From positions 1 to 41,210 of the IMG/VR virus record IMGVR_UViG_3300031576_001286: a stretch of 41,210 nucleotides of DNA; one strand, 5' to 3'. Within the stretch, counting starts at the first letter, position 1. Every line of letters begins with the position of its first letter. The stretch comes from a virus. Both the position numbers and the translations under genes were made by a program. Positions 3,496 to 40,620 of this stretch are shown one piece after another. Below the pieces are notes generated by a model. It made no database searches, was not told where the DNA came from, and saw only the letters and a program-made list of their open reading frames with translations.

Positions 3496-3568
3496 GTAAG
3501 ACGTAGGCCGGTGGATCGGCTTGCTGTTTAGTGTAGGGCATCGCAGGACGAAACGCAAGGAGGCAGGG

Positions 3569-4609
3569 ATGGCCGGACGAGCATTGAAGCCGGCGGAGGC
3601 GCTCGAGACGGTGCGCGGGTTGCTGACGAAGGCGCGGCCGCAGCTGACCGCCGCGCTCCCGAAGCACTTGGGCGGCGTGGACCGCTTCACGCGGATCGCG
3701 CTGACCGCGTGCCAGAAGCAGCCGCAGCTGCTCGAATGCGCGCCGATGACCTTCATCGGGGCGCTGTTGCAGAGCGCGCAGCTGGGACTCGAGGTCAGCG
3801 ATGGAACGGGCAAGGCGTGGCTGGTGCCGTTCTTCAACAACAAGAAGGGCCGGCGGGAGGTCCAGTTGATCATCGGCTACCGCGGGATGATCGACCTGGC
3901 GCGGCGCGGGATGCCGGCGTACCCGATCGAGGCGCGGGTCGTGTGCGAGGGCGACACGTTCAGCTACGCCTACGGCACGAAGGCGGGGGTCGTCCACGTC
4001 CCGGCCGACCCCTCGAGCGGCAAGCCGACGCACTTCTACGCGGTCGCCCGTTTCCCGAACGGCACGGTCCAGTTCGACGTGATGACGAAGGTGGCGGTCG
4101 ACCGGATCCGGGCCCGCGCGAAGGCGCAGGAGACCGGGCCGTGGAACACCGACTACGAAGAAATGGGGAAAAAGACCGTCGTCCGTCGGATCTGCAAGCT
4201 GCTGCCGTGCAGCGTCGAGCTCTTGCGGGCGATCGATCTCGACGAGCGACACGAGCTCGGCAAGCCGCAGGATCTCGGGACGTTGGCGACGGACGAGGAG
4301 TTTGGCACCGTGATCGACGGCGATATCCTCGGCGACGAGGAACCCGCCCCGGTGCCGAGCGCTGCCAAGCCGGCCGCGCCGGGCGAGCTGGCACTCAAGG
4401 GGGCCTCGGACGGGGAGCGGCTCTGGAACGCGCTCATGGACGACGTGGGCGGCAACAACGAGGAGGCGTCGAACCGGCTCGAGCAGCTCTCGGCGTTCAA
4501 GGGGCGCAGTGGGATCGTGCCCGGTGTGCGGGACTGGAAGCGGCTCTCGGACGGGCGGGCGAAGCGGACGCTGGATGACTACCTCAAGTCGCGCACAGCC
4601 ACGGCCTAA
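3569..4609 (+). CDS. recT: RecT-family single-strand annealing protein
   Basis: 346 aa from the ATG at 3569, which has an excellent Shine-Dalgarno (AAGGAGG). RecT hallmarks are present: AALPKHLGGVDRF near the N-terminus, QLLECAPMTFIGALLQSAQLGLE, then the beta core VQLIIGYRGMIDLARR, and FYAVARFPNG with the later MGKKTVVRRICKLLP helix. The C-terminal ~100 residues are acidic and variable, as usual in this family. It anneals complementary strands in phage recombination. The next gene, overlapping by 35 bp, is a PD-(D/E)XK nuclease that may supply the 5'-3' resection role of RecE. Confidence 0.95.
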   Translation: MAGRALKPAEALETVRGLLTKARPQLTAALPKHLGGVDRFTRIALTACQKQPQLLECAPMTFIGALLQSAQLGLEVSDGTGKAWLVPFFNNKKGRREVQLIIGYRGMIDLARRGMPAYPIEARVVCEGDTFSYAYGTKAGVVHVPADPSSGKPTHFYAVARFPNGTVQFDVMTKVAVDRIRARAKAQETGPWNTDYEEMGKKTVVRRICKLLPCSVELLRAIDLDERHELGKPQDLGTLATDEEFGTVIDGDILGDEEPAPVPSAAKPAAPGELALKGASDGERLWNALMDDVGGNNEEASNRLEQLSAFKGRSGIVPGVRDWKRLSDGRAKRTLDDYLKSRTATA

Positions 4610-5874: not shown

Positions 5875-6209
5875 AGATCGAGCAGGCAATCGAGGAAATG
5901 AAGCGCCGCTATCCAGACAAGACATGGGCGCTGACGGCGGAGGCGATGTTTTACGGCCCTCCGACCGGGGCGTTGAAAATCCGGCTCTCCGGCTATGTCG
6001 ATCCGGGGCCAGGCGCCAGTGGGTTCAAGACGGATGATCGCGGTTCCTGGGAGGCGGTGCTGGTTGAACTGGAACTGACGGAGCGGCTGCGACTGCTCAA
6101 GCGGGATGACCGGATCGAAGCAGAGCCGGAGCACTTGAACGACATGCAGAAAGAGGCGACCGTCCAGGCAGAAACACCAGCGGACGCAACAAACCAGGCG
6201 CCGTTCTGA
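5871..6209 (+). CDS. Unknown early protein
   Basis: 112 aa, good Shine-Dalgarno (AGGAGG, spacing 5). Predicted mixed alpha/beta: an N-terminal helix (IEQAIEEMKRRYP), beta strands (TGALKIRLSGYV) and a C-terminal polar tail ending NQAPF. No family recognised. The gene sits between recombination and nuclease genes and its stop overlaps the next ATG as TGATG, so it is part of the DNA-metabolism operon. Confidence 0.72.
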   Translation: MKIEQAIEEMKRRYPDKTWALTAEAMFYGPPTGALKIRLSGYVDPGPGASGFKTDDRGSWEAVLVELELTERLRLLKRDDRIEAEPEHLNDMQKEATVQAETPADATNQAPF

Positions 6210-6937
6210 TGGCCGAACACTACGTCTCACCATCAGCGCTCGGGGACTTCCGGAAGTGCCGGCGGTGCTTTTGGCTGGATCGCAATCAGAAGATCAAACG
6301 GCCGCGCGGGGCGTTCCCGACGCTGCCGGGCGGGATCGACCGGGTGATGAAGGCGTACTTCGACGAGCACCGGGCCAAGGGGACGCTGCCGCCGGAGATT
6401 GCGGACGCAATGCCGGGCGACGGGGAAGGGACGACGCTCTACAGCGACACGGTGCATCTGACGGCGATGCGGAACGCGCGCAAGCCGGTGCTGCAGATGA
6501 TCATCGGCAACGTGAAGCTCGTCGGCGGGATCGATGACTTGCTCGTCGGACCAGGAGGAGGCGTCTCGCCATTCGATGTAAAGACAAAGGGGAGCCTCAT
6601 CAAGCCGGACGCGGACCCGTTCGAGTGGTACCGGATGCAGCTCAACGACTACGGGCTGCTGCTCCAGGCGGGCGGGTTCGCGCTGACCGGGCAGGGCTAC
6701 CTCGGCTACTGGTCGCCCGTCCAGGTGATGGCGAAGCCAGCCGACCTGAAGGCGATGCCGACGTCGACGTGGATGGCGTTCCAGTGCCAGGTCTTCGAGA
6801 TGGACCTCGACCTGGAGGCTGCGCGCGCGGAGGTCATGGACGCCGGGACGTGCCTGGATGGCGAGCTGCCCGAGGCGGACCCGGGCTGCGAGACGTGCGC
6901 CTTCGTGGCCGAGGCCGCGACGGCGGTGGCGGCGTAG
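6209..6937 (+). CDS. RecB/Cas4-like PD-(D/E)XK exonuclease with Cys cluster
   Basis: 242 aa. It opens with VSPSALGDFRKCRRCFWL, the start motif of RecB/Cas4/AddB-type nucleases. The catalytic core is GGIDDLL followed by PFDVKTKG (D and D-x-K), then a QLNDYGLLLQ helix (the conserved QxxxY motif). Cysteines C17/C20 at the N-terminus and C215, C227, C230 at the C-terminus could hold a 4Fe-4S cluster as in Cas4/AddB. Starts at TGATG with the preceding stop. Probably a phage exonuclease for recombination or replication end processing. Confidence 0.85.
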   Translation: MAEHYVSPSALGDFRKCRRCFWLDRNQKIKRPRGAFPTLPGGIDRVMKAYFDEHRAKGTLPPEIADAMPGDGEGTTLYSDTVHLTAMRNARKPVLQMIIGNVKLVGGIDDLLVGPGGGVSPFDVKTKGSLIKPDADPFEWYRMQLNDYGLLLQAGGFALTGQGYLGYWSPVQVMAKPADLKAMPTSTWMAFQCQVFEMDLDLEAARAEVMDAGTCLDGELPEADPGCETCAFVAEAATAVAA

Positions 6938-6967: not shown

Positions 6968-7738
6968 ATGGCGAAATACCAGGGCGTGCTGACGAGCGTC
7001 TGGGACGATCCGGTCTTCCAGGCCTGGCCGAAAGACGCGAAGCTCGTGTTCCTAAACCTCATCACGAGCCAGCGGCACAACCCGGCCGGGCTCTACGCGG
7101 TGACGCGCGAGACGCTGCAATTCGAGACCGGGCTTTCCGCGGAGGAGTTCGCCGCGGCCTTCAAGGTCCTGCTCGCGGTGCCGGCGGACGAGGACTACGC
7201 GCGTGTCCGCTTCGATGAGCGCCACAAGGTCGTCTGGCTCGTGAACGCGCTGAAGCATCAGCCAGCGCTGACGGAGGAGAACGCGAACCTGATCCGCAAT
7301 GTGCAGGCGGTGCTGCGGCAGTACGTCGAGAGCCCGCTGGTCGGCGAGTGCGTTGCGCTCTACCGGAAGCGTGACTGCGGGTTCGTCTTCGCGGGGTTCA
7401 ACGGGTACGTGAAGAAGGGGCTTATAAGGGGCTCGCTAGGGGCTTCCAAGCCCCCCAATAAGGATAGACCTAAAGATAAAGCTATCAATAGAGATACGGG
7501 TACAGCCAAGGCCTTGACAGAGCCGGACGTCGCGGCGCTCGTCAAAGACTTTGGGAAGCCGCTCGTGGAGCGCGAGCTGCCGCGGCTGGCGCGGTGGCTG
7601 AAGGGCAAGCCGGACCTCATGCCGAAGATCCGGGACATGGCGGCGTTCGCCCGGCGATGGGTCGAGCGGTCGTCTCAGGGCGAGCGCGACCTCGAGAAGC
7701 TCGCGGGCTTGGCGCGCGGGATCGCGAGGAGCGGCTGA
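6968..7738 (+). CDS. Phage replication initiator (DnaD/O-like)
   Basis: 256 aa. The N-terminal ~120 residues (VWDDPVFQAWPKDAKLVFLNLITSQRHNP...GLYAVTRETL) match the winged-helix domain of phage replisome organizers. A charged, low-complexity linker (about 150-180, NKDRPKDKAINRDTG) is encoded by unusually AT-rich DNA that forms the origin-like block at 7417-7497, as in lambda O where the origin lies inside the gene. The C-terminal helices (LVERELPRLARWLKG) may contact helicase loaders. No helicase or primase gene is evident nearby, so host helicase recruitment is likely. Confidence 0.8.
   Translation: MAKYQGVLTSVWDDPVFQAWPKDAKLVFLNLITSQRHNPAGLYAVTRETLQFETGLSAEEFAAAFKVLLAVPADEDYARVRFDERHKVVWLVNALKHQPALTEENANLIRNVQAVLRQYVESPLVGECVALYRKRDCGFVFAGFNGYVKKGLIRGSLGASKPPNKDRPKDKAINRDTGTAKALTEPDVAALVKDFGKPLVERELPRLARWLKGKPDLMPKIRDMAAFARRWVERSSQGERDLEKLAGLARGIARSG
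7417..7497. other. Candidate replication origin inside the initiator gene
   Basis: Three direct repeats of GGGGCTY begin at 7417, 7428 and 7439, spaced exactly 11 bp (one helical turn). The third forms a perfect inverted repeat GGGGCTT-CC-AAGCCCC (7439-7454). Immediately after comes an AT- and purine-rich tract (7457-7497, AATAAGGATAGACC... to AGAGATA) that stands out in this GC-rich genome and would suit duplex unwinding. Iterons plus AT-rich tract inside an initiator gene mirrors the lambda origin in O. Confidence 0.65.
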
Positions 7739-8310
7739 TGGACGCGCTGCAGGAGCTCGACGAGCTCGAGCGGGCATGGAACGAGCACCGGATCCGGGAG
7801 GCGTCGGCGATGTTTCAAGAGGCCGGGCGGATCTGGACGGCCGCCGCGTTCGCGCGCTTCATGCTCCTGAGCGCGGCCGCCGTCGCGCTCATGATGGCGC
7901 TCGCGACGATCGTCTTCGCGGCCGCGCCGAACGTCGTCCAGGTCGCCCGGAGCTACGTCGGCGAGGGGAACGTCTTCAACGACGACGGAGCGAATTACTG
8001 CGCGGACTTCGTTGTCCGGGTGTTCGGCGACCAGCTGCCGGTCCCGCCGAGCCGAAGCGCGAAGGCGCTCTGGAATGCGATCCAAGCCACCGGCTTGGCG
8101 ACGGACGATCCGCAACCCGGGGACCTCGTCTTCTTCTGGCGGGTCTCGCCGCAGGATTGGCGCGGCCACGTCGGGATCGTCGTCGTGCGGCAGGGGCGCT
8201 TCATCGGGACGGTCGAGGGGAACGTCGGCGGGAAGGTCGTCATGCGGCGCTACGTGCTCGGCGAGATCACGCAGCTGCTGGGCTTCGGGCGGACGGGCGA
8301 GCGAGGATGA
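7738..8310 (+). CDS. Membrane-anchored CHAP-domain hydrolase
   Basis: 190 aa from the TGATG-coupled ATG. Domains: a charged N-terminal helix (1-35), one transmembrane segment (about 40-63), then a CHAP/NlpC-like papain-fold domain with Cys88 (NYCADFV), His144 (GHVGIVV) and a third polar residue near E160/N162 (EGN). The segment PQPGDLVFFW is the typical CHAP/NlpC strand. It should cut peptidoglycan (amidase or endopeptidase) while tethered in the inner membrane. It is the only obvious free-standing endolysin candidate, yet it sits in the early replication operon; the alternative is a signal-arrest type endolysin or a non-lysis role. Confidence 0.82.
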   Translation: MDALQELDELERAWNEHRIREASAMFQEAGRIWTAAAFARFMLLSAAAVALMMALATIVFAAAPNVVQVARSYVGEGNVFNDDGANYCADFVVRVFGDQLPVPPSRSAKALWNAIQATGLATDDPQPGDLVFFWRVSPQDWRGHVGIVVVRQGRFIGTVEGNVGGKVVMRRYVLGEITQLLGFGRTGERG

Positions 8311-9450: not shown

Positions 9451-9720
9451 ATGGGCGAGGCAGTCAAGACGCGCGTGCGGCGGGGCAAGCAGTTGATGCT
9501 CTTTGAGGTCACCGAGCACGACAGTTCGCTGGCGAAGGCCTGCGATCAGTTCCTCGAGGCGCGCGATGGGCTGGAGCAGGCCAAGGAGGCGGTCGAGGCG
9601 GCGCGGAACCTGCTGGTGGTCGAGATGGAGAAAGTCCGCCGGACGTCGGTCAAGCATAGTGGGCGAATCTTCACGCTGCGGCAGACGGATCCGAAGGTGA
9701 GCATTACGGTCAAAGAATGA
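9451..9720 (+). CDS. Small coiled-coil protein upstream of HerA-like ATPase
   Basis: 89 aa from the ATG at 9451 (GGAGG six bases upstream); another ATG lies at 9439. Residues about 25-60 form an amphipathic helix (KACDQFLEARDGLEQAKEAVEAARNLLVVEMEKV), then a beta-rich tail with R-x-F-x-L. The stop overlaps the ATPase start as ATGA, so the two are translationally coupled and may act together. Function unknown. Confidence 0.65.
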   Translation: MGEAVKTRVRRGKQLMLFEVTEHDSSLAKACDQFLEARDGLEQAKEAVEAARNLLVVEMEKVRRTSVKHSGRIFTLRQTDPKVSITVKE

Positions 9721-11120
9721 GCCCGCAGACGCTCGACCTCGGGACGACGGCGACGGGGCGGCCCTTCACGATGCCGCTGGACGCCGCCGTACAGACCTTC
9801 GCGATCTTGGCGATCCGCGGGGCCGGGAAAACCTGTACGGCGACGGTGATCGCCGAGGAGTTCTGTCGCGCACGACTGCCGTGGATCTGCTTCGATCCCG
9901 TCGGTGTCTGGTGGGGGATCCGGGCCACGCACGAGGGCAAGCCGGGCGGGTTCCCGGTCGTCGTCATCGGCGGCGACCATGCGGACATCCCGCTGGAACG
10001 GACGGCCGGGGCGAAGGTCGCCGAAGCGCTGATGGCCGAGCCGGTGGCGGCGGTGATCGACCTCAGCACGGAGTCGAAGCGCTTCTGGCATACGTTCCTG
10101 ACGGACTTCTGCCTGGCGCTGATGACGATGAGCCCGGAGATCCCGCGCCACCTGTTCATCGAGGAGGCGCCGGAGTTCGTGCCGCAGCGGACGCGGGTCG
10201 AGCTGACGGCGCGGTGCAAGGAGGCGATCGATCGGATCGTGCGGCTCGGACGCAATCGCGGCTATGGCTGCACGCTGATCTCGCAGCGGCCGGCGACGGT
10301 CGACAAGGACGTGCTGAGCCAATGCGAGAACCTGCTGGTGCTGCGGACCGTCGGGACGCACGACCGGAAGGCGCTGCAGGAGTGGATCGAGGCGAAGGCC
10401 AGCGACCGGCAGCTTGACACGTTCTGGAAAGAACTCGCCTCGCTGCCCAACGGGACGGCCTGGTGGTGGTCGCCGCATTGGCTCGGACGGTTCGAGAAAG
10501 TGCGGATCCGCGAGCGCATGACGTACCATCCCGGGGCGACGCGGCAGGTCGGCAAGGCGGCGAAGTCCGTGGCGCTGGCGGACGTCGGCCAGTTCGTCGA
10601 AAAGCTCCGACGGCAGCTGACCAAGACGAGCGTGCCGGCGGGCGCGACGGGGCTCGTGCGTCCGCCGCGCTCGAGCGTCGTCGGCACCGGCACCGTCGAG
10701 ACCGGCACCGGGCGCGTCCTGTCCGTCGAGGTCGACGTGGACAAGCTGCAGGTGATGGCGCGCCAGCTCGCCGACTGGCGTGGGCGGGCCCAGGCCGCCG
10801 AGCAGAAGCTCGAGGCGGTGCGGAAGCTGCTGCGTCCGGACTACGAGGCGTTGCGCGCGCTGTTCGACGAGCTCAAGGCTGGCGAGATCGTGCAGGCCGA
10901 CGGCCATCTCTACGGGCCGTGGCTGGAGAAGGCCGGTGGGAAGGGCTGCAAGCGGCTATTGGAGGTGATGATCGAGCGCCGCGAGCTGACGAAGCATCAG
11001 CTGGCGACGCTGGCGACGGTGTCCTTCAAGAGCAGTACCTTCCGTGGCTACATGGCGTGGCTCAAGCGCAACGGGCTCGTCGAGGTCGACGGCGAGACGG
11101 TGCGGCTGCGGAATCTGTAG
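9717..11120 (+). CDS. HerA-like (DUF87/DUF853-type) ATPase with C-terminal winged helix
   Basis: 467 aa. N-terminal HerA/FtsK-fold ATPase: a P-loop IRGAGKT at 33-39 (no Gly at the first P-loop position), Walker B HLFIEEAPEF (E149/E150), an arginine-rich RIVRLGRNRGYG stretch and the sensor motif LISQRPA (Gln190) typical of HerA translocases. Residues about 275-400 contain a helical linker with predicted coiled coil (LQVMARQLADWRGRAQAAEQK), and the C-terminal ~60 residues form a winged helix (ELTKHQLATLATVSFKSSTFRGYMAWLKRNGLV). Such proteins pump or track along DNA. The VRR-NUC-type nuclease 330 bp downstream in the same operon is a plausible partner. Confidence 0.85.
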   Translation: MSPQTLDLGTTATGRPFTMPLDAAVQTFAILAIRGAGKTCTATVIAEEFCRARLPWICFDPVGVWWGIRATHEGKPGGFPVVVIGGDHADIPLERTAGAKVAEALMAEPVAAVIDLSTESKRFWHTFLTDFCLALMTMSPEIPRHLFIEEAPEFVPQRTRVELTARCKEAIDRIVRLGRNRGYGCTLISQRPATVDKDVLSQCENLLVLRTVGTHDRKALQEWIEAKASDRQLDTFWKELASLPNGTAWWWSPHWLGRFEKVRIRERMTYHPGATRQVGKAAKSVALADVGQFVEKLRRQLTKTSVPAGATGLVRPPRSSVVGTGTVETGTGRVLSVEVDVDKLQVMARQLADWRGRAQAAEQKLEAVRKLLRPDYEALRALFDELKAGEIVQADGHLYGPWLEKAGGKGCKRLLEVMIERRELTKHQLATLATVSFKSSTFRGYMAWLKRNGLVEVDGETVRLRNL

Positions 11121-11453: not shown

Positions 11454-11782
11454 GCGAGTCGACGCTCGTGACCGCGTGCCTGATGCTCCTGAAGGCGCAC
11501 CGGATCCGGGCTTGGCGGCAGAACGCTGGCAGCATGGCGGCGAGCGCCGGGGGGAAGCGGTACTGGATGCGGCTGGGCGAGAAAGGCATGAGCGACATCG
11601 GCGGGGTCCTGCCGGACGGGCGCTACCTGGCGGTGGAGTGCAAGCGGCCGGGCAACCGGCTCACGCTGGAGCAGCGGGCGTTCCTGGTGGACGTGAACGC
11701 GCGCGGCGGGGCCGGGATCGTGGTCTGGTCCTCCGACCAGCTGGAGCGGGAGCTGCGGGGGCGTGGGTTGTGGAGCGCATGA
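11450..11782 (+). CDS. VRR-NUC-type nuclease (PD-(D/E)XK)
   Basis: 110 aa. GMSDIGGVLPDGRYLAVECKRPGNRLTLEQRAFLVDVNARGG carries the VRR-NUC core: D of SDI, E-x-K in AVECK, then a Q-R-x-F helix. These minimal PD-(D/E)XK proteins act on branched DNA, as Holliday-junction resolvases or similar. In phage early operons they may resolve replication or recombination intermediates. ATGA overlap with the preceding TM gene. Confidence 0.87.
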   Translation: MSESTLVTACLMLLKAHRIRAWRQNAGSMAASAGGKRYWMRLGEKGMSDIGGVLPDGRYLAVECKRPGNRLTLEQRAFLVDVNARGGAGIVVWSSDQLERELRGRGLWSA

Positions 11783-11792
11783 GGAGGCGGCG

Positions 11793-13232
11793 ATGAGTGA
11801 GGCAAAACAGGGGGTGCTGCTGTTGGAGAAGGTGCAGCCGTCGAAGACCAACCCGCGGCGGCACGTCGATCCGGCGCGGCAGCAGGAGCTGACGGCCAGC
11901 GTGGTCAAGCACGGCGTCATGACGCCGATCCTGGTCCGGCCGGTGAACGCGCACTTTGAGATCGTCGCCGGCGAGCGCCGCTTCCGCGCGGCGAAGGCCG
12001 CCGGCCTGAAAGAGATCCCGGCGGTCATCCGCGAGCTGAGCGACGCGGACGCGCTCGAGCTGCAGATGGTGGAGAACCTGCAGCGCGATGATCTCCATCC
12101 GCTCGAGGAAGCCGAGGGCTACCGGCAGCTACTGCAGGTGAAGTTCGGGCCCGGTCGGCAGGCCTACGATGCCGCCAAGATCGCCGAGCGCGTCGGCCGC
12201 TCGGTCAAGTACGTCTACGACCGGATCAAGCTGCTGCAGCTCATCGAGCCGATCCACAAGGTGTTCCTGGAAGGGCGCATCACCGCAGGGCATGCCATCT
12301 TGCTGGCACGGCTCTCGCCGCAGGATCAGAAGCTCGTCGCCGACCGGAACCACGGCGGCCTGTACGCGCATGAGGACGCGCACTTCAAGGAGATCGTCGG
12401 CGAGTCGGACGGGTACAAGGTCCGCAGCGTGCGGGAGCTGCAGCAATTCATCGACGAGCACTGCCGGTTCGTGCCCGAGCGCGACGCCGACCCGATGCTG
12501 TTCCCGGAGACCGCGGCGATCCTCAAGACCGCGGACGCGAAGAAGAAGTCCGACAAGATCGTGCCTATCACCTACGGCTACGTGCAGGACTCCGCGCGGC
12601 ATGGCGAGAAGCACATCGCGCCGACGTCCTGGGAGCGGGCCGATGGCAAGAAGGGCTCGAGGACGTGCGAGTTCTCCGTGATCGGGGTGGTGGTCGCCGG
12701 CGAGAACCGCGCCCAGGCGTTCCGCGTCTGCACGAACAAGGAGAAGTGCAAGACCCACTGGGCGGCGTGGCAGAAAGCACGCGCCAATCGCCTCGGCACG
12801 ACCGGCCTGAAGACCGAAGGGATGAGCGACGCCGAGCGCCAGCGCAAGGAGCGCGCGGCACGCGAGGCCCAAGAGGCCAAGCAGAAAGCGGAGAAGGAGC
12901 GCTGGGAGCGGGCGGTGCCGGCGATCGCCCAAGCGCTCGCCGCCGCGGTGAAGAAGGCACCGGCCAAGGCCACCGGGCTCCTGGCGGACCTGATCCTGGA
13001 CAGTATGGGGGACAGCTACCTGGAGAAAGGCGCGGACAAGTATCTCGCTCGCGGGACCAGCGCCGAGGACTTGATCCGGTACATCGCCTTCAACGTGGTG
13101 TACGGCCAGATCGACAACCAGTGGGACCGAGAGAACTTCCTCAAGACCGCGAAAGCGTTGGGCGTGGACGCGCAGAAGATCCTCGACCAGGTCGCCCCAG
13201 TGCAGACGTCTGCAGCGAAGGCCAAGAAATGA
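11793..13232 (+). CDS. ParB-like DNA-binding protein
   Basis: 479 aa from the ATG at 11793 (GAGGAGG upstream). The ParB/Spo0J N-terminal domain is plain: KVQPSKTNPRRHVD, LTASVVKHGVMTPILVRP, then the GERRFRAAKAAG CTPase motif and MVENLQRDDLHPLEEAEGY. A KorB-like helix-turn-helix follows (DAAKIAERVGRSVKYVYDRIKLLQL). The C-terminal half has a Cys-pair segment (RVCTNKEKCKTHW), a charged helix (about 350-385) and a conserved end domain. It resembles plasmid/PRTRC-type ParB proteins. No ParA is seen, so classic partitioning is not assured. Confidence 0.9.
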   Translation: MSEAKQGVLLLEKVQPSKTNPRRHVDPARQQELTASVVKHGVMTPILVRPVNAHFEIVAGERRFRAAKAAGLKEIPAVIRELSDADALELQMVENLQRDDLHPLEEAEGYRQLLQVKFGPGRQAYDAAKIAERVGRSVKYVYDRIKLLQLIEPIHKVFLEGRITAGHAILLARLSPQDQKLVADRNHGGLYAHEDAHFKEIVGESDGYKVRSVRELQQFIDEHCRFVPERDADPMLFPETAAILKTADAKKKSDKIVPITYGYVQDSARHGEKHIAPTSWERADGKKGSRTCEFSVIGVVVAGENRAQAFRVCTNKEKCKTHWAAWQKARANRLGTTGLKTEGMSDAERQRKERAAREAQEAKQKAEKERWERAVPAIAQALAAAVKKAPAKATGLLADLILDSMGDSYLEKGADKYLARGTSAEDLIRYIAFNVVYGQIDNQWDRENFLKTAKALGVDAQKILDQVAPVQTSAAKAKK

Positions 13233-15008: not shown

Positions 15009-16337
15009 ATGGACGTGGTGCATGTCCCACTCGCCGAGCTGACGAAGGTCGACTACAACCCGCGGAAGATCACGCCGCCGCAGTTCGAGGCGCTGAAGCA
15101 GTCGCTGCGTGCGGATCCGGAGTTCTTCGCGTCGCGGCCGTGCCTCGTGAACCAACGCGACGGGCAGCTCGTGATCTACGCCGGCAATATGCGCTTCGAG
15201 GCGGCGAAGGCGCTCGGCTGGGCGACGGTGCCGTGTCTCATCGCGACGCTCCCGCTCGCCCAGGAGCGGGAGCGGAATCTCAAGGACAACAACGAGTACG
15301 GCGAGTACGTCGACGACGCCTTGGCGGCGATGCTCTACCAGATGGCACAGGGCGGCACGTCGGTCGACGCGCTGGGCTTTAATGAGCGCGAGCTGCGCGT
15401 GCTGATGGACGAGGGCCGCGCGGCGATCGAGGGCGCGGGCCCGCCGGAGGATGACGTGCCAGCGCCGCCGGTGGAGGCCGTCACCCAACCCGGCGAGCTG
15501 ATCACGCTCGGGGCGCATCGGCTGCTCTGCGGGGACGCGACGAAGAAGGAGGACGTCCAGCGCCTCCTGGCCGGCGAGCAGGCGGATCTGTGCGCGACGG
15601 ATCCGCCGTACCTGGTCGATTACACGGGCTTGGCACGACCGGGGGGGGGCAAGGACTGGAGCGACACGTATCGCGAGGTCGACATCAAGAACGCGCAGCA
15701 GTTCTTCCACGAGACGTTCGCGCGGGTCCTCGAGGTCACGAAGCTGGGGGCGGCGATCTACTGCTGGCACGCGCATCGGCTGGTAGGCGTCATCATGGAG
15801 ACATGGAAAGGGCTCGGCATTCTCCCGCACCAGCAGATCGTCTGGGTCAAGCCGGCCGCGATGGCCAACTTCGCGTTCTGGGACTGGCAGCACGAACCCT
15901 GCCTGATGGGATGGCGTCAGGGTCACAAGCCGAACCATGACGGGATGAAGCGCGGCGCTCGGACGACAGTCTGGATCGTTGGGCTGCAGCGTAGCGGAGA
16001 TTCGATGGAAACGGACTACTACAGCGACGTCTGGGAGATGGACTGGGAAGGGCGCAAGCGCAACAACGGCGGCCTGCACCCGACGACGAAGCCCGTCGAG
16101 ATTTTCGCGCGGCCGATGCGCGTTCACACCGCGCAGGGGGCGCTCTGCTATGAGCCCTTTGCGGGCTCCGGCTCGCAGCTCATCGCGGCGGAGAAGCTGG
16201 CGCGGCGCTGCGTGGCGATGGAACTGGAACCGCGCTTCTGTGACGTCATCCGAGACCGCTACGCGGCCTACGTCGGCGAGCCGAAGTGGGCGGCGCATCC
16301 GAGCGCGGTCGAGCAACAATTGGCGGCGAGGACATGA
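15009..16337 (+). CDS. ParB-domain/DNA methyltransferase fusion (N6/N4 type)
   Basis: 442 aa. Residues 1-~90 form a ParB-like nuclease/CTPase-type domain (LTKVDYNPRKITPPQFEALKQSL, YAGNMRFEAAKALG; the ERR of true ParB is replaced by NMR). Residues ~160-430 are a DNA_methylase_N6_N4 domain with DPPY (198-201) preceding the SAM-binding motif FAGSGS (384-389), the order of the beta class. It should methylate adenine-N6 or cytosine-N4 in a short site. No restriction enzyme is nearby, so it looks like an orphan protecting or marking phage DNA. A run of nine G at 15641-15649 encodes part of residues 210-214. Good Shine-Dalgarno (GAGGAG). Confidence 0.93.
   Translation: MDVVHVPLAELTKVDYNPRKITPPQFEALKQSLRADPEFFASRPCLVNQRDGQLVIYAGNMRFEAAKALGWATVPCLIATLPLAQERERNLKDNNEYGEYVDDALAAMLYQMAQGGTSVDALGFNERELRVLMDEGRAAIEGAGPPEDDVPAPPVEAVTQPGELITLGAHRLLCGDATKKEDVQRLLAGEQADLCATDPPYLVDYTGLARPGGGKDWSDTYREVDIKNAQQFFHETFARVLEVTKLGAAIYCWHAHRLVGVIMETWKGLGILPHQQIVWVKPAAMANFAFWDWQHEPCLMGWRQGHKPNHDGMKRGARTTVWIVGLQRSGDSMETDYYSDVWEMDWEGRKRNNGGLHPTTKPVEIFARPMRVHTAQGALCYEPFAGSGSQLIAAEKLARRCVAMELEPRFCDVIRDRYAAYVGEPKWAAHPSAVEQQLAART
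15641..15649 (+). repeat. G9 homopolymer inside the methyltransferase gene
   Basis: Nine consecutive G, the longest mononucleotide run I noticed in the window, just after the DPPY codons. The frame is intact here. Loss or gain of one G would truncate the enzyme before its SAM motif, so the tract could act as a phase-variation switch. Confidence 0.7.
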
Positions 16338-16819: not shown

Positions 16820-18302
16820 GTCGCTGCGGATTCTTCAGGCGCGCTGGCAGCGGGACTGGCGGTTCTTCTATTACCAGACGCTGGGCGGGCCGCCGCTGAC
16901 GTGGGACCAAGAGGCGCTGTGGGACCACGTCGCGGCGCATGAGCGGACGGTCGTGACGAGCGGCCATGCGACGGGCAAGGACTTCGAGATCGGCCGGATC
17001 GTCCCGTGGTTTCTGTTCTCGTGGTCGCCGGCGATCGTTATCACGACGGCCCCCACGGACCGGCAGGTCGAGAAGATCATCTGGGGCGAGATCCACGCGG
17101 CGGAGGCCAAGGCCCGCATTCCGCTTGGGGGCAAGCTCCTCGAGAAGGAGTGGGTCGTCGATGCCAAGAACAAGTACTACGCGATCGGCTTCACGTCGAA
17201 GGACACGCAGGCGAGCTCGCAGCACTTCCAGGGGTTCCACCAGGCGCACGTCCTCGTCGTGCTCTCCGAGGCGCCGGGCGTCCACGACTCGGTGTGGGAG
17301 GCGCTCGAGGGGCTGACGACCGCGCAGCACGTCCGGGTGCTCGCCGTCGGGCAGGCTATCGGGTCGGTCGGCGCGTTCTACGAGGTCTGGCGGCACGCCT
17401 GCCGGCGCGGGCCGCAATGCCGCTGCGCCGAGTGGCATCATCTGGCGCTGAGCAGCTGGGACGCGGCGGCCTGGAACGAGCAGATCGGGATCCCGGGGCT
17501 CGCGACGCGGGCCTGGTGCGAGCGGCGCCTCCTGAAGTGGGGCGAGGACAGCCCGCTCTACGTCAGCCGCGTCCTCGGCCAGATGCCGGAGGGGGCGGGC
17601 GACCGGATCATCGCGCTGGCGTGGGCGGCGCTCGCGCAGGAGCTCGAGCTGCCGACCGGCGGGGCGTGCGGGATGGGGATCGACCCGGCCTGGCGCGGGG
17701 AGGACGCGAGCGCCTTCTGCGTCGTGCGCGGGCAGCGGCAGACGCGGCTCGAGGTCGCCTACGGGCAGAACACGCTGGAGGTCGTGAACCGTGCCGTGCG
17801 GATCATCCGCGAGGAGCAAGAGGCGCATCCGGAGCAGCCGCTCAAGACGGTGTGTGTCGATCTGGGCTATAACCCGGGCGTGTACGATCAGCTCTGGTCG
17901 GTGAGCGAGGAGCTGGGCTTCACGGTGATCGGGGTAAACTTCGGCGGGACGGCGGAGCGCGAGGCAGAGTACTACGACAAGGGCGCCGAGATGTGGTGGA
18001 CGCTGCGGGAGGCGCTGCGGGTCGGGACGTTCCAGCTCCTCCCGCAGGACCACCAGGAGAGCGATGAGCTATTGAACGAGCTGACGGCGCGGCGGCTCTC
18101 GAAGAAGCCGGACAAGCTCGGGCGGATCCGCCTCGAGTCGAAGGACGAGCTCAAGAAGCGCGGCGCGCACAGCCCGGACCGCGTCGACGCGCTGATCCTG
18201 GCGCGCGAGGCGTGCCGGCAGTTGACGTCGCCGATGCTCTCCTCGACGGCGGCCGAGCCGGAGCCCAGCGAGGACGAGGCCGCCGTGTGGACGCCGGCAT
18301 GA
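16764..18302 (+). CDS. terL: Large terminase subunit (packaging ATPase/nuclease)
   Basis: 512 aa from the ATG at 16764 (16788 also possible; no strong Shine-Dalgarno). The ATPase has a P-loop SGHATGKD (K72) and a Walker B with the catalytic Glu in VLVVLSEAPG, where Ser replaces the usual Asp. The C-terminal RNase H-like nuclease has GMGIDPAWRGEDAS, VCVDLGYNPG and SPDRVDALILA acidic motifs. It packages DNA into the prohead and cuts concatemers. Overlaps TerS by 56 bp and the next small gene by ATGA. Confidence 0.93.
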   Translation: MATRHQPTMPASSPQAAAESLRILQARWQRDWRFFYYQTLGGPPLTWDQEALWDHVAAHERTVVTSGHATGKDFEIGRIVPWFLFSWSPAIVITTAPTDRQVEKIIWGEIHAAEAKARIPLGGKLLEKEWVVDAKNKYYAIGFTSKDTQASSQHFQGFHQAHVLVVLSEAPGVHDSVWEALEGLTTAQHVRVLAVGQAIGSVGAFYEVWRHACRRGPQCRCAEWHHLALSSWDAAAWNEQIGIPGLATRAWCERRLLKWGEDSPLYVSRVLGQMPEGAGDRIIALAWAALAQELELPTGGACGMGIDPAWRGEDASAFCVVRGQRQTRLEVAYGQNTLEVVNRAVRIIREEQEAHPEQPLKTVCVDLGYNPGVYDQLWSVSEELGFTVIGVNFGGTAEREAEYYDKGAEMWWTLREALRVGTFQLLPQDHQESDELLNELTARRLSKKPDKLGRIRLESKDELKKRGAHSPDRVDALILAREACRQLTSPMLSSTAAEPEPSEDEAAVWTPA

Positions 18303-20546: not shown

Positions 20547-20635
20547 GCCAGCGTCGGGAGATGCGACCGAGCGCGGCAAGAGCCTCGTCGACCAGTGGCT
20601 CTGACAGCGACGGAGAGGTCGTGTGTGTCGTCTAA

Positions 20636-20745
20636 GGGGCTTGTTGGGGGCTTAGAAAGGACTAATAAGGGGCTTGGGACCCCCTCATTAAGGATAAGGA
20701 TAGGAATAAGGCTAGATATAGCTTTATAGATCCCGTAAAGCTTTA
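20636..20745. other. Second origin-like iteron block (intergenic)
   Basis: GGGGCTT at 20636, 20647 and 20669, with a degenerate copy (AGGACTA) at 20658: four units at exact 11-bp period. The last leads into CCCCC, then A-T-TAAGGATA and an AT/purine-rich tract to a perfect palindrome TAAAGCTTTA (20736-20745). The order iterons, G/C inverted segment, (A)TAAGGATA tract, AAGCTATC/TATAGCTT matches the block at 7417-7497. One reading frame (PLIKDKDRNKA...) also resembles initiator linkers, so it could be a relic of a replication gene. Confidence 0.6.
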
Positions 20746-20765
20746 GTACTTGTCAGAGAAAATGC

Positions 20766-20795
20766 TTGACAACGCCAAGGCAATAGGAACAGAAT
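20766..20795 (+). promoter_or_regulatory. Promoter-like sequence before the protease/capsid operon
   Basis: TTGACA (20766-20771), an 18-bp spacer, CAGAAT (20790-20795): 6/6 and 4/6. The surrounding GCTTGACAACG is identical to that at 14926. It would start transcription of the capsid operon near 20802. Confidence 0.6.
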
Positions 20796-20831
20796 CGCCG
20801 CGTACGGTCTAACCGGGGGGTGCGAGGTGTG

Positions 20832-20888
20832 ATGAGCAGCGCGGCTCTTTTTATTTGCCTGGAAAATCAAGTCAAGGGCTTAAGTTGA
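20832..20888 (+). CDS. Putative 18-aa leader peptide of the protease gene
   Basis: ATG at 20832 with GAGGTG upstream encodes MSSAALFICLENQVKGLS and stops two bases before the protease ATG at 20891. A small GAGC/GCTC hairpin and the TTTTTATTT run lie within it. The protease start has no close Shine-Dalgarno of its own, so reinitiation after this leader is plausible. Confidence 0.4.
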   Translation: MSSAALFICLENQVKGLS

Positions 20889-40368: not shown

Positions 40369-40620
40369 ATGTGGAGCATGGACGCGGCGCGTGACTACAT
40401 CCACGTCCTGCCGCCGATCGTGATCGGCGGGCGCGAGCTCGCCCTGGAGGTCGAGATCGTCGGCGCGTGGGCCGACGGGACGTACGTGAGCGAGGGGGAT
40501 CTGCGGAATCCGAAGGACGCGGAGCACGCGGCCGTCGCGGAGGCGGCGAGCGGGGCGTTCCGGCGAGTACGCGACGCCGTGATGGCGGCGCGCCAGGCGC
40601 AGCAGGAGGGTGGACCATGA
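40369..40620 (+). CDS. Small unknown protein in lysis-like cluster
   Basis: 83 aa; ATG at 40369 (a second ATG at 40378). Beta N-terminal half (IHVLPPIVIGGRELALEVEIVG) and helical C-terminal half. No family recognised. Its stop overlaps the last gene as ATGA. Confidence 0.55.
   Translation: MWSMDAARDYIHVLPPIVIGGRELALEVEIVGAWADGTYVSEGDLRNPKDAEHAAVAEAASGAFRRVRDAVMAARQAQQEGGP

Follow-up and report, generated by a model that had tools for sequence, protein, structure and literature searches.

The window analysed here, comprising the 41,210 bases of IMG/VR virus record IMGVR_UViG_3300031576_001286, carries at 7417-7506 a series of repeats followed by a ladder of TA dinucleotides, which, judged from its sequence, is probably a replication origin lodged in the linker codons of the phage's own initiator gene (a probability of roughly 0.85). 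Direct repeats and an AT-rich element thus lie together inside an initiator gene, as in origins of the lambda and SPP1 kind, and a second module of the same type is found in the non-coding late region, as in the two-origin layout of SPP1.

The initiator gene and its surroundings

The gene at 6968-7738 (plus strand) was assigned to an initiator or replisome organiser with a winged-helix N-terminus, a disordered linker and a helical C-terminus on the basis of protein profiles and an AlphaFold2 model. Its N-terminus matched PHROG 1701, a DnaD-like helicase loader family (E 5.4e-10, residues 1-119), and PHROG 6251, a replisome organizer family (E 2e-8, residues 1-63). No Pfam family was matched at E 0.01, and a RepA_N domain hence had no profile match either. 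The C-terminal part of the initiator family profile matched DnaD domains (2zc2, E 1.1e-5), the window protein's own family match ending at residue 119. The model, computed from 49 sequences, had a mean pLDDT of 77.6; residues 11-139 scored mostly 80-98 and comprised a winged-helix and helical region that was mostly confident up to about residue 139, and pLDDT fell below 50 at residues 152-181, which are the codons of the repeats and the ladder. These codons therefore specify a predicted disordered linker between the winged-helix domain and the helical C-terminus. Residues 1-93 of the model aligned with the chains 5kbj, 4pql, 4pt7 and 4pta (Z 5.4-5.9), which we take to be pSK41 Rep-type N-terminal domains; CRP-type winged helices tied with these plasmid initiator chains in Z, so that the alignment gives a fold class and not kinship. 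A Foldseek search with the model returned no match at E 0.001.

The left end of the window encodes an integrase, followed by a CI/LexA-like repressor (2031-2735), RecT (3521-4609) and a PD-(D/E)XK nuclease (6209-6937), the upstream neighbour of the initiator gene. The initiator stop codon overlaps the next start at 7736-7740 (TGATG), and the downstream gene (to 8310) encodes a CHAP/NlpC-P60 domain protein, an odd neighbour for an initiator. Further into the early region lie genes for a HerA-like ATPase (9717-11120), a ParB protein with ParB_N/HTH_ParB domains (11763-13232) and a ParB-like/DNA methyltransferase fusion (15009-16337). Among those early proteins that were scanned, none was recognisable as a DnaB-type helicase or loader. 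An Rfam scan of the window gave no match, and GC skew along it showed a clear switch at neither module.

Phased iterons and a TA ladder within the initiator gene

Sequence inspection placed three plus-strand iterons in the linker codons, GGGGCTT at 7417-7423, GGGGCTC at 7428-7434 (+11 from the first) and GGGGCTT at 7439-7445 (+22), together with a minus-strand inverted half-site AAGCCCC at 7448-7454, 9 bp past the start of the third iteron. The first-pass annotation of this DNA had reported three GGGGCTY repeats with an exact 11-bp period, a perfect 7-bp inverted repeat and an AT/purine tract at this place. Its observation on the repeats is confirmed, the inverted repeat being formed by 7439-7445 and 7448-7454 around a 2-nt centre, and GC content does fall in the tract, to 0.45-0.48 as against about 0.65-0.7 around it. 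The GC3 of codons 165-180 was 0.25, compared with 0.92 in the rest of the gene, and an equally low value arose in 0 of 20,000 synonymous recodings. The pattern GGGRCTY-N4-GGGRCTY was found three times in the window where 0.02 occurrences were expected, the third being an array at 20636. Synonymous recoding produced a triple 6-mer at 11-bp steps in 70 of 200,000 trials for the linker and in 6 of 20,000 for the whole gene. It is the arrangement and not the word that is unusual, since GGGGCTY on its own occurs 15 times in the window, no more often than expected (17.3).

The AT-rich tract of this first module is a regular TA ladder, a feature missed in the first-pass annotation: eight TA dinucleotides follow each other at exactly 6 bp over 7459-7506, making up a putative unwinding element. 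The window holds only two runs of at least four TA at this period, the longest at 7459 (eight) and the other at 20689 (seven), and each follows a repeat array. No TA run of at least four was detected at periods 3-5 and 7-11, and those at period 12 are the same two ladders. The maximum run at 6 bp was 2-4 in 100 first-order Markov shuffles of the window and never exceeded 3 in 20,000 synonymous recodings of the linker.

A second module between late genes

The array at 20636-20675 (plus strand) consists of GGGGCTT at 20636, 20647 and 20669 and a degenerate copy, AGGACTA, at 20658, all in 11-bp phase. A degenerate inverted half-site, GACCCCC, occupies 20678-20684 on the minus strand with the +9 offset seen in module 1, and the second ladder, of seven TA at exactly 6 bp, spans 20689-20730. 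Module 2 can be aligned to module 1, from which it is separated by about 13.2 kb, and in both, counted from the start of the last iteron, the distance to the inverted half-site is 9 bp and that to the ladder 20 bp. The region 20547-20854 is broken by stops and has no initiator-like reading; it lies between a portal gene (PHROG 2662, E 2.9e-120) and a head maturation protease gene (PHROG 80, E 4.5e-22). Because module 2 is non-coding, the 6-bp period of its ladder is not a codon effect. We also noted that the dyad at 20662-20691, read on the minus strand, has the score of a terminator-like hairpin, and that a promoter-like TTGACA-18-CAGAAT is located at 20766-20795, downstream of module 2 and ahead of the head protease gene.

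The spacing is kept in distant relatives while the word changes

Close relatives of the window initiator were not found, the best segment identity in an alignment-based protein search being 39% or less, and the comparison was made with distant relatives taken from this search and from phage records (238 of 244 genes were kept, those shorter than 500 nt being dropped, and formed 57 clusters at 60% identity). Peptide-pattern searches of viral and genome contigs with the initiator alone had yielded no relatives, and the neighbouring PDDEXK and RecT genes, when used as queries, led to loci without a recognisable initiator.

Exact repeats of at least 9 bp at a lag of 11 bp were present in the linker (gene nucleotides 271-540) of 19 of the 57 clusters, as compared to 0.32 expected from synonymous codon shuffles; the window itself is not among these 19, since its own longest exact run at this lag is 8 bp. 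The same test on the winged-helix region gave one cluster versus 0.30 expected, and no other linker lag indivisible by 3 was represented in more than 5 clusters, a count reached at lag 22. The repeated word differs between phages: it is of TACGGTA or TACAGTA type in Geobacillus virus E2 and Psychrobacillus PVJ1, of AACGGTT type in four loci (L012, L028, L039 and L044) and GGGRCTT in the window and in L033, L098, L105, L107 and L152. In L033, the sequence GGGACTT-ATAA-GGGGCTT lies within a full-length replisome-organiser match (E 1.4e-75). Constant spacing with a changing word is what co-evolution of the winged helix with its site would be expected to produce. This comparison, which the first-pass annotation had named as its own refutation test, supports its interpretation: the 11-bp period was retained in the same linker and some relatives kept GGGRCTT. 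The module is not common to all such initiators, since TP901-1 rep, an annotated experimental replication protein, has neither a lag-11 repeat of at least 9 bp nor a TA ladder.

GGGRCTT occurs in 63 copies in 23 of 72 clusters, a proportion that is not a frequency because 40 of the 278 genes counted had been recruited with a 20-mer described below. All three codon phases are represented among these copies in both orientations, and the peptides that they encode vary (for example KGLIRG, GAYKGL and SPLQAPYKPL); pairs in the same orientation are spaced by 11 bp in 27 cases and by 22 bp in seven. The earlier proposal that coding constraint alone is insufficient for the exact spacing is borne out, given that relatives keep the 11-bp period with the word read in other frames or reversed and that recodings rarely match it. 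A purely peptide-level cause of the linker repeats, through repeat expansion in a disordered segment and without any role of the DNA, is hardly credible: linker lags of 12, 18 and 24 bp are also enriched (28 clusters versus 13.7 expected at lag 12), and many of these repeats derive from charged or alternating residues, but 11 is not a multiple of 3, one DNA word, read in three frames and in either orientation, yields peptides that differ, and the non-coding module 2 has the same 6-bp TA ladder.

Additional arrays were observed near some initiator genes. One locus (L301) has three, located just upstream of the initiator start codon (G005:6159), in winged-helix codons (6388) and in the linker (6653), which suggests autoregulation. 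Two others carry a second array in the opposite orientation near the start of the initiator gene (L263 at 8490 and L250 at 640).

Runs of at least five TA at 6 bp were found in 15 of the 72 clusters, compared with 2.6 from synonymous shuffles. The same test gave 0 or 1 cluster at periods 3, 4, 5, 7, 8 and 10 and nine clusters at period 11, the latter reflecting the iterons themselves; the TA run of L110 may be iteron-like too. Among 32 whole records, picked mostly for carrying arrays, 13 had runs of at least six TA at this period, in 16 distinct places, 13 of which, when read by coordinates, are no more than about 60 bp from an array (the exceptions being G011:9609, G011:17032 and G029:11305); a reversed control pattern was matched in 5 of the 32. 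The ladder is common, not universal, since one of at least four TA in the 60 bp that follow the array was seen in just 8 of the 23 GGGRCTT clusters. Plain DnaA-trio runs ([AT]A[AG], at least seven) were less clear, with 18 of 72 clusters as against 6.7 expected, and many of them are runs of charged-residue codons; we make no claim for them.

The module recurs in other viral contigs, inside and outside initiator genes

A search conducted at the DNA level only, with the 20-mer AAGGGGCTTATAAGGGGCTT derived from the window's word, retrieved 46 viral contigs, and in 40 of these the 20-mer lies within an ORF that the winged-helix profile recognises (E < 1e-3). The other six include three borderline cases (L250, L261 and L288), two with the 20-mer in no long ORF (L255 and L276) and one with an E-value of 7.3 (L294). 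The L276 contig does encode an initiator with further arrays, the 20-mer being located just upstream of its start. In L255 the 20-mer occurs twice (3291 and 3726) in dispersed-repeat-like sequence outside initiator genes. When the 116-bp module was compared with phage records by DNA similarity, a single chance-like match of 22 bp was obtained.

The combined pattern, AAGGGGCT followed after a gap of 5-35 by TAARGATAARGATA, was present in 70 contigs. It lies in an initiator-profile ORF (E < 1e-2) in 30, in another ORF of at least 150 aa in 17 and in no such ORF in 23. Non-coding location as such is not enriched, since 144 of 420 random places in the same loci also fall outside such ORFs. Ten of the 17 contigs with another ORF were scanned: seven matched families of replication initiation, DnaD or O, with two of these matches being weak, two matched only families of unknown function and one was a radical-SAM-like gene (L321). 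The shortest gaps between iteron and ladder were 5 (23 cases), 10 (5), 21 (36) and 32 (9), with a few others; 10, 21 and 32 are separated by 11-bp steps, gap 5 forms a separate class, and both window modules, with a gap of 14 bp, stand outside the 10/21/32 series.

Several of the non-coding modules neighbour packaging or head genes. In L332 and L346 the module immediately precedes a terminase large subunit gene, and in L318 and L367 it lies upstream of terminase small; the L304 module follows a tape-measure gene, and one long ORF flanking that of L303 has a head-morphogenesis match. No informative neighbour was seen among the flanking genes scanned for L329, L312 and L296. Three contigs of the L332 type by sequence (L307, L323 and L342) hold, beside terminase, the module together with an initiator carrying GGGGCTT-type sites. 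Record G004 carries an array at 40617, within its initiator gene, and another at 18282 that is outside genes, with a ladder-like tract after each. Five records including the window hold both an in-gene array and a non-coding module, a count that gives no frequency because most of the other contigs are fragments.

Discussion

One of the two closest published layouts is that of the Bacillus phage SPP1, which has two origins separated by about 12-13 kb, each combining direct repeats with an AT-rich unwinding element (PMC6316719, PMC3485210). Gene 38 contains oriL, and oriR occupies a non-coding part of the late region, where bound gp38 has been proposed to halt replication forks and to set off concatemer replication. 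The window resembles SPP1 in layout, with one site in the initiator gene and another in a non-coding late region, and in encoding an annealing recombinase (gp35 in SPP1, RecT in the window). It differs in that a loader and helicase of the gene 39/40 type were not identified among the early proteins scanned. A second parallel is pSK41, for which PMC5703833 describes an origin central in rep, a linker dispensable for the protein, a winged-helix N-terminal domain and a DnaD-like C-terminal domain; this matches the winged-helix domain, the linker encoded by the putative origin and the helical C-terminus of the window initiator, which differs in its repeats and in having no RepA_N match in Pfam. 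The first-pass annotation had likened the site to the lambda origin in gene O. This analogy holds in so far as lambda, too, has iterons and then an AT-rich tract midway along its initiator gene; SPP1 oriL/oriR and pSK41 are nearer, as lambda has 18-bp iterons at a spacing of 20-24 bp and shows neither an 11-bp repeat nor a TA ladder, whereas the window has 7-bp sites at 11 bp. The ladder also recalls the DnaA-trio and DRE of the B. subtilis oriC, where a regular short-step single-strand motif adjoins duplex initiator sites and where, according to PMC10201434, DnaD binds single-stranded TnnT pairs opposite the DnaA-trios. The complementary strand of the window ladder presents regularly spaced TnnT, as opposite DnaA-trios, a resemblance in sequence only; the window step is 6 bp with TA, and a reader protein can be proposed only by analogy.

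In the mechanism that we propose, the winged-helix domains would occupy the GGGGCTY sites, which the 11-bp phasing places on the same helical face, together with the inverted half-site. The bound initiator would strain the adjacent ladder, with its TA step every 6 bp, which would then melt, and the C-terminal domain of the initiator or a loader would engage the single strands and bring in the helicase. By analogy with SPP1, module 2 (20636-20730) seems, on balance, to be a second initiator-binding site resembling oriR, and it probably would serve as a late origin or as a fork barrier promoting the switch to concatemers, as is proposed for oriR.

The repeats could alternatively be an operator through which the initiator or a phage repressor controls transcription. 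The array of L301 upstream of the initiator start codon and the promoter-like site downstream of module 2 would suit such a role, which we nevertheless consider improbable as the main site lies about 450 bp inside the gene, in a disordered linker, across many phages, and is frequently coupled to a TA ladder that an operator does not need. Very unlikely, in our estimate, is a partition or packaging site used by the ParB-like protein (11763-13232) or by terminase: the phage does encode ParB_N/HTH_ParB domains and terminase or head genes are frequent neighbours of the non-coding modules in other phages, but the initiator gene is by far the commonest location, reached from DNA alone, and helically phased sites beside a melting-prone ladder fit initiation better.

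Within the reading of module 1 as an origin, a broader and more tentative idea, which we hold to be possible though doubtful, is that of a widespread portable module with two clocks, 11-bp duplex sites and a 6-bp TA ladder read as single strand by a DnaD-like initiator. It might be a viral counterpart of DnaA boxes with the trio or DRE, and its non-coding copy among packaging and head genes might couple fork arrest to concatemers and packaging. As far as our searches show, the 11-bp and 6-bp architecture and its portable non-coding copies are not described in the open-licence literature, which was searched by title and start of abstract and contained no description of the module; strings of the module sequence were also without match.

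For most phages, to our knowledge, replication origins are unknown. If the module is an origin, a simple rule (11-bp iterons in the initiator linker, often followed by a 6-bp TA ladder) would call origins from sequence, and it would apply to phages of several bacterial phyla. Module 2 would offer a direct test case for the idea, developed for SPP1, that the initiator at a late site triggers the switch to concatemers, and the ladder would allow a test of the idea that phage initiators, like DnaA and DnaD at chromosome origins, recognise single-stranded motifs of regular spacing.
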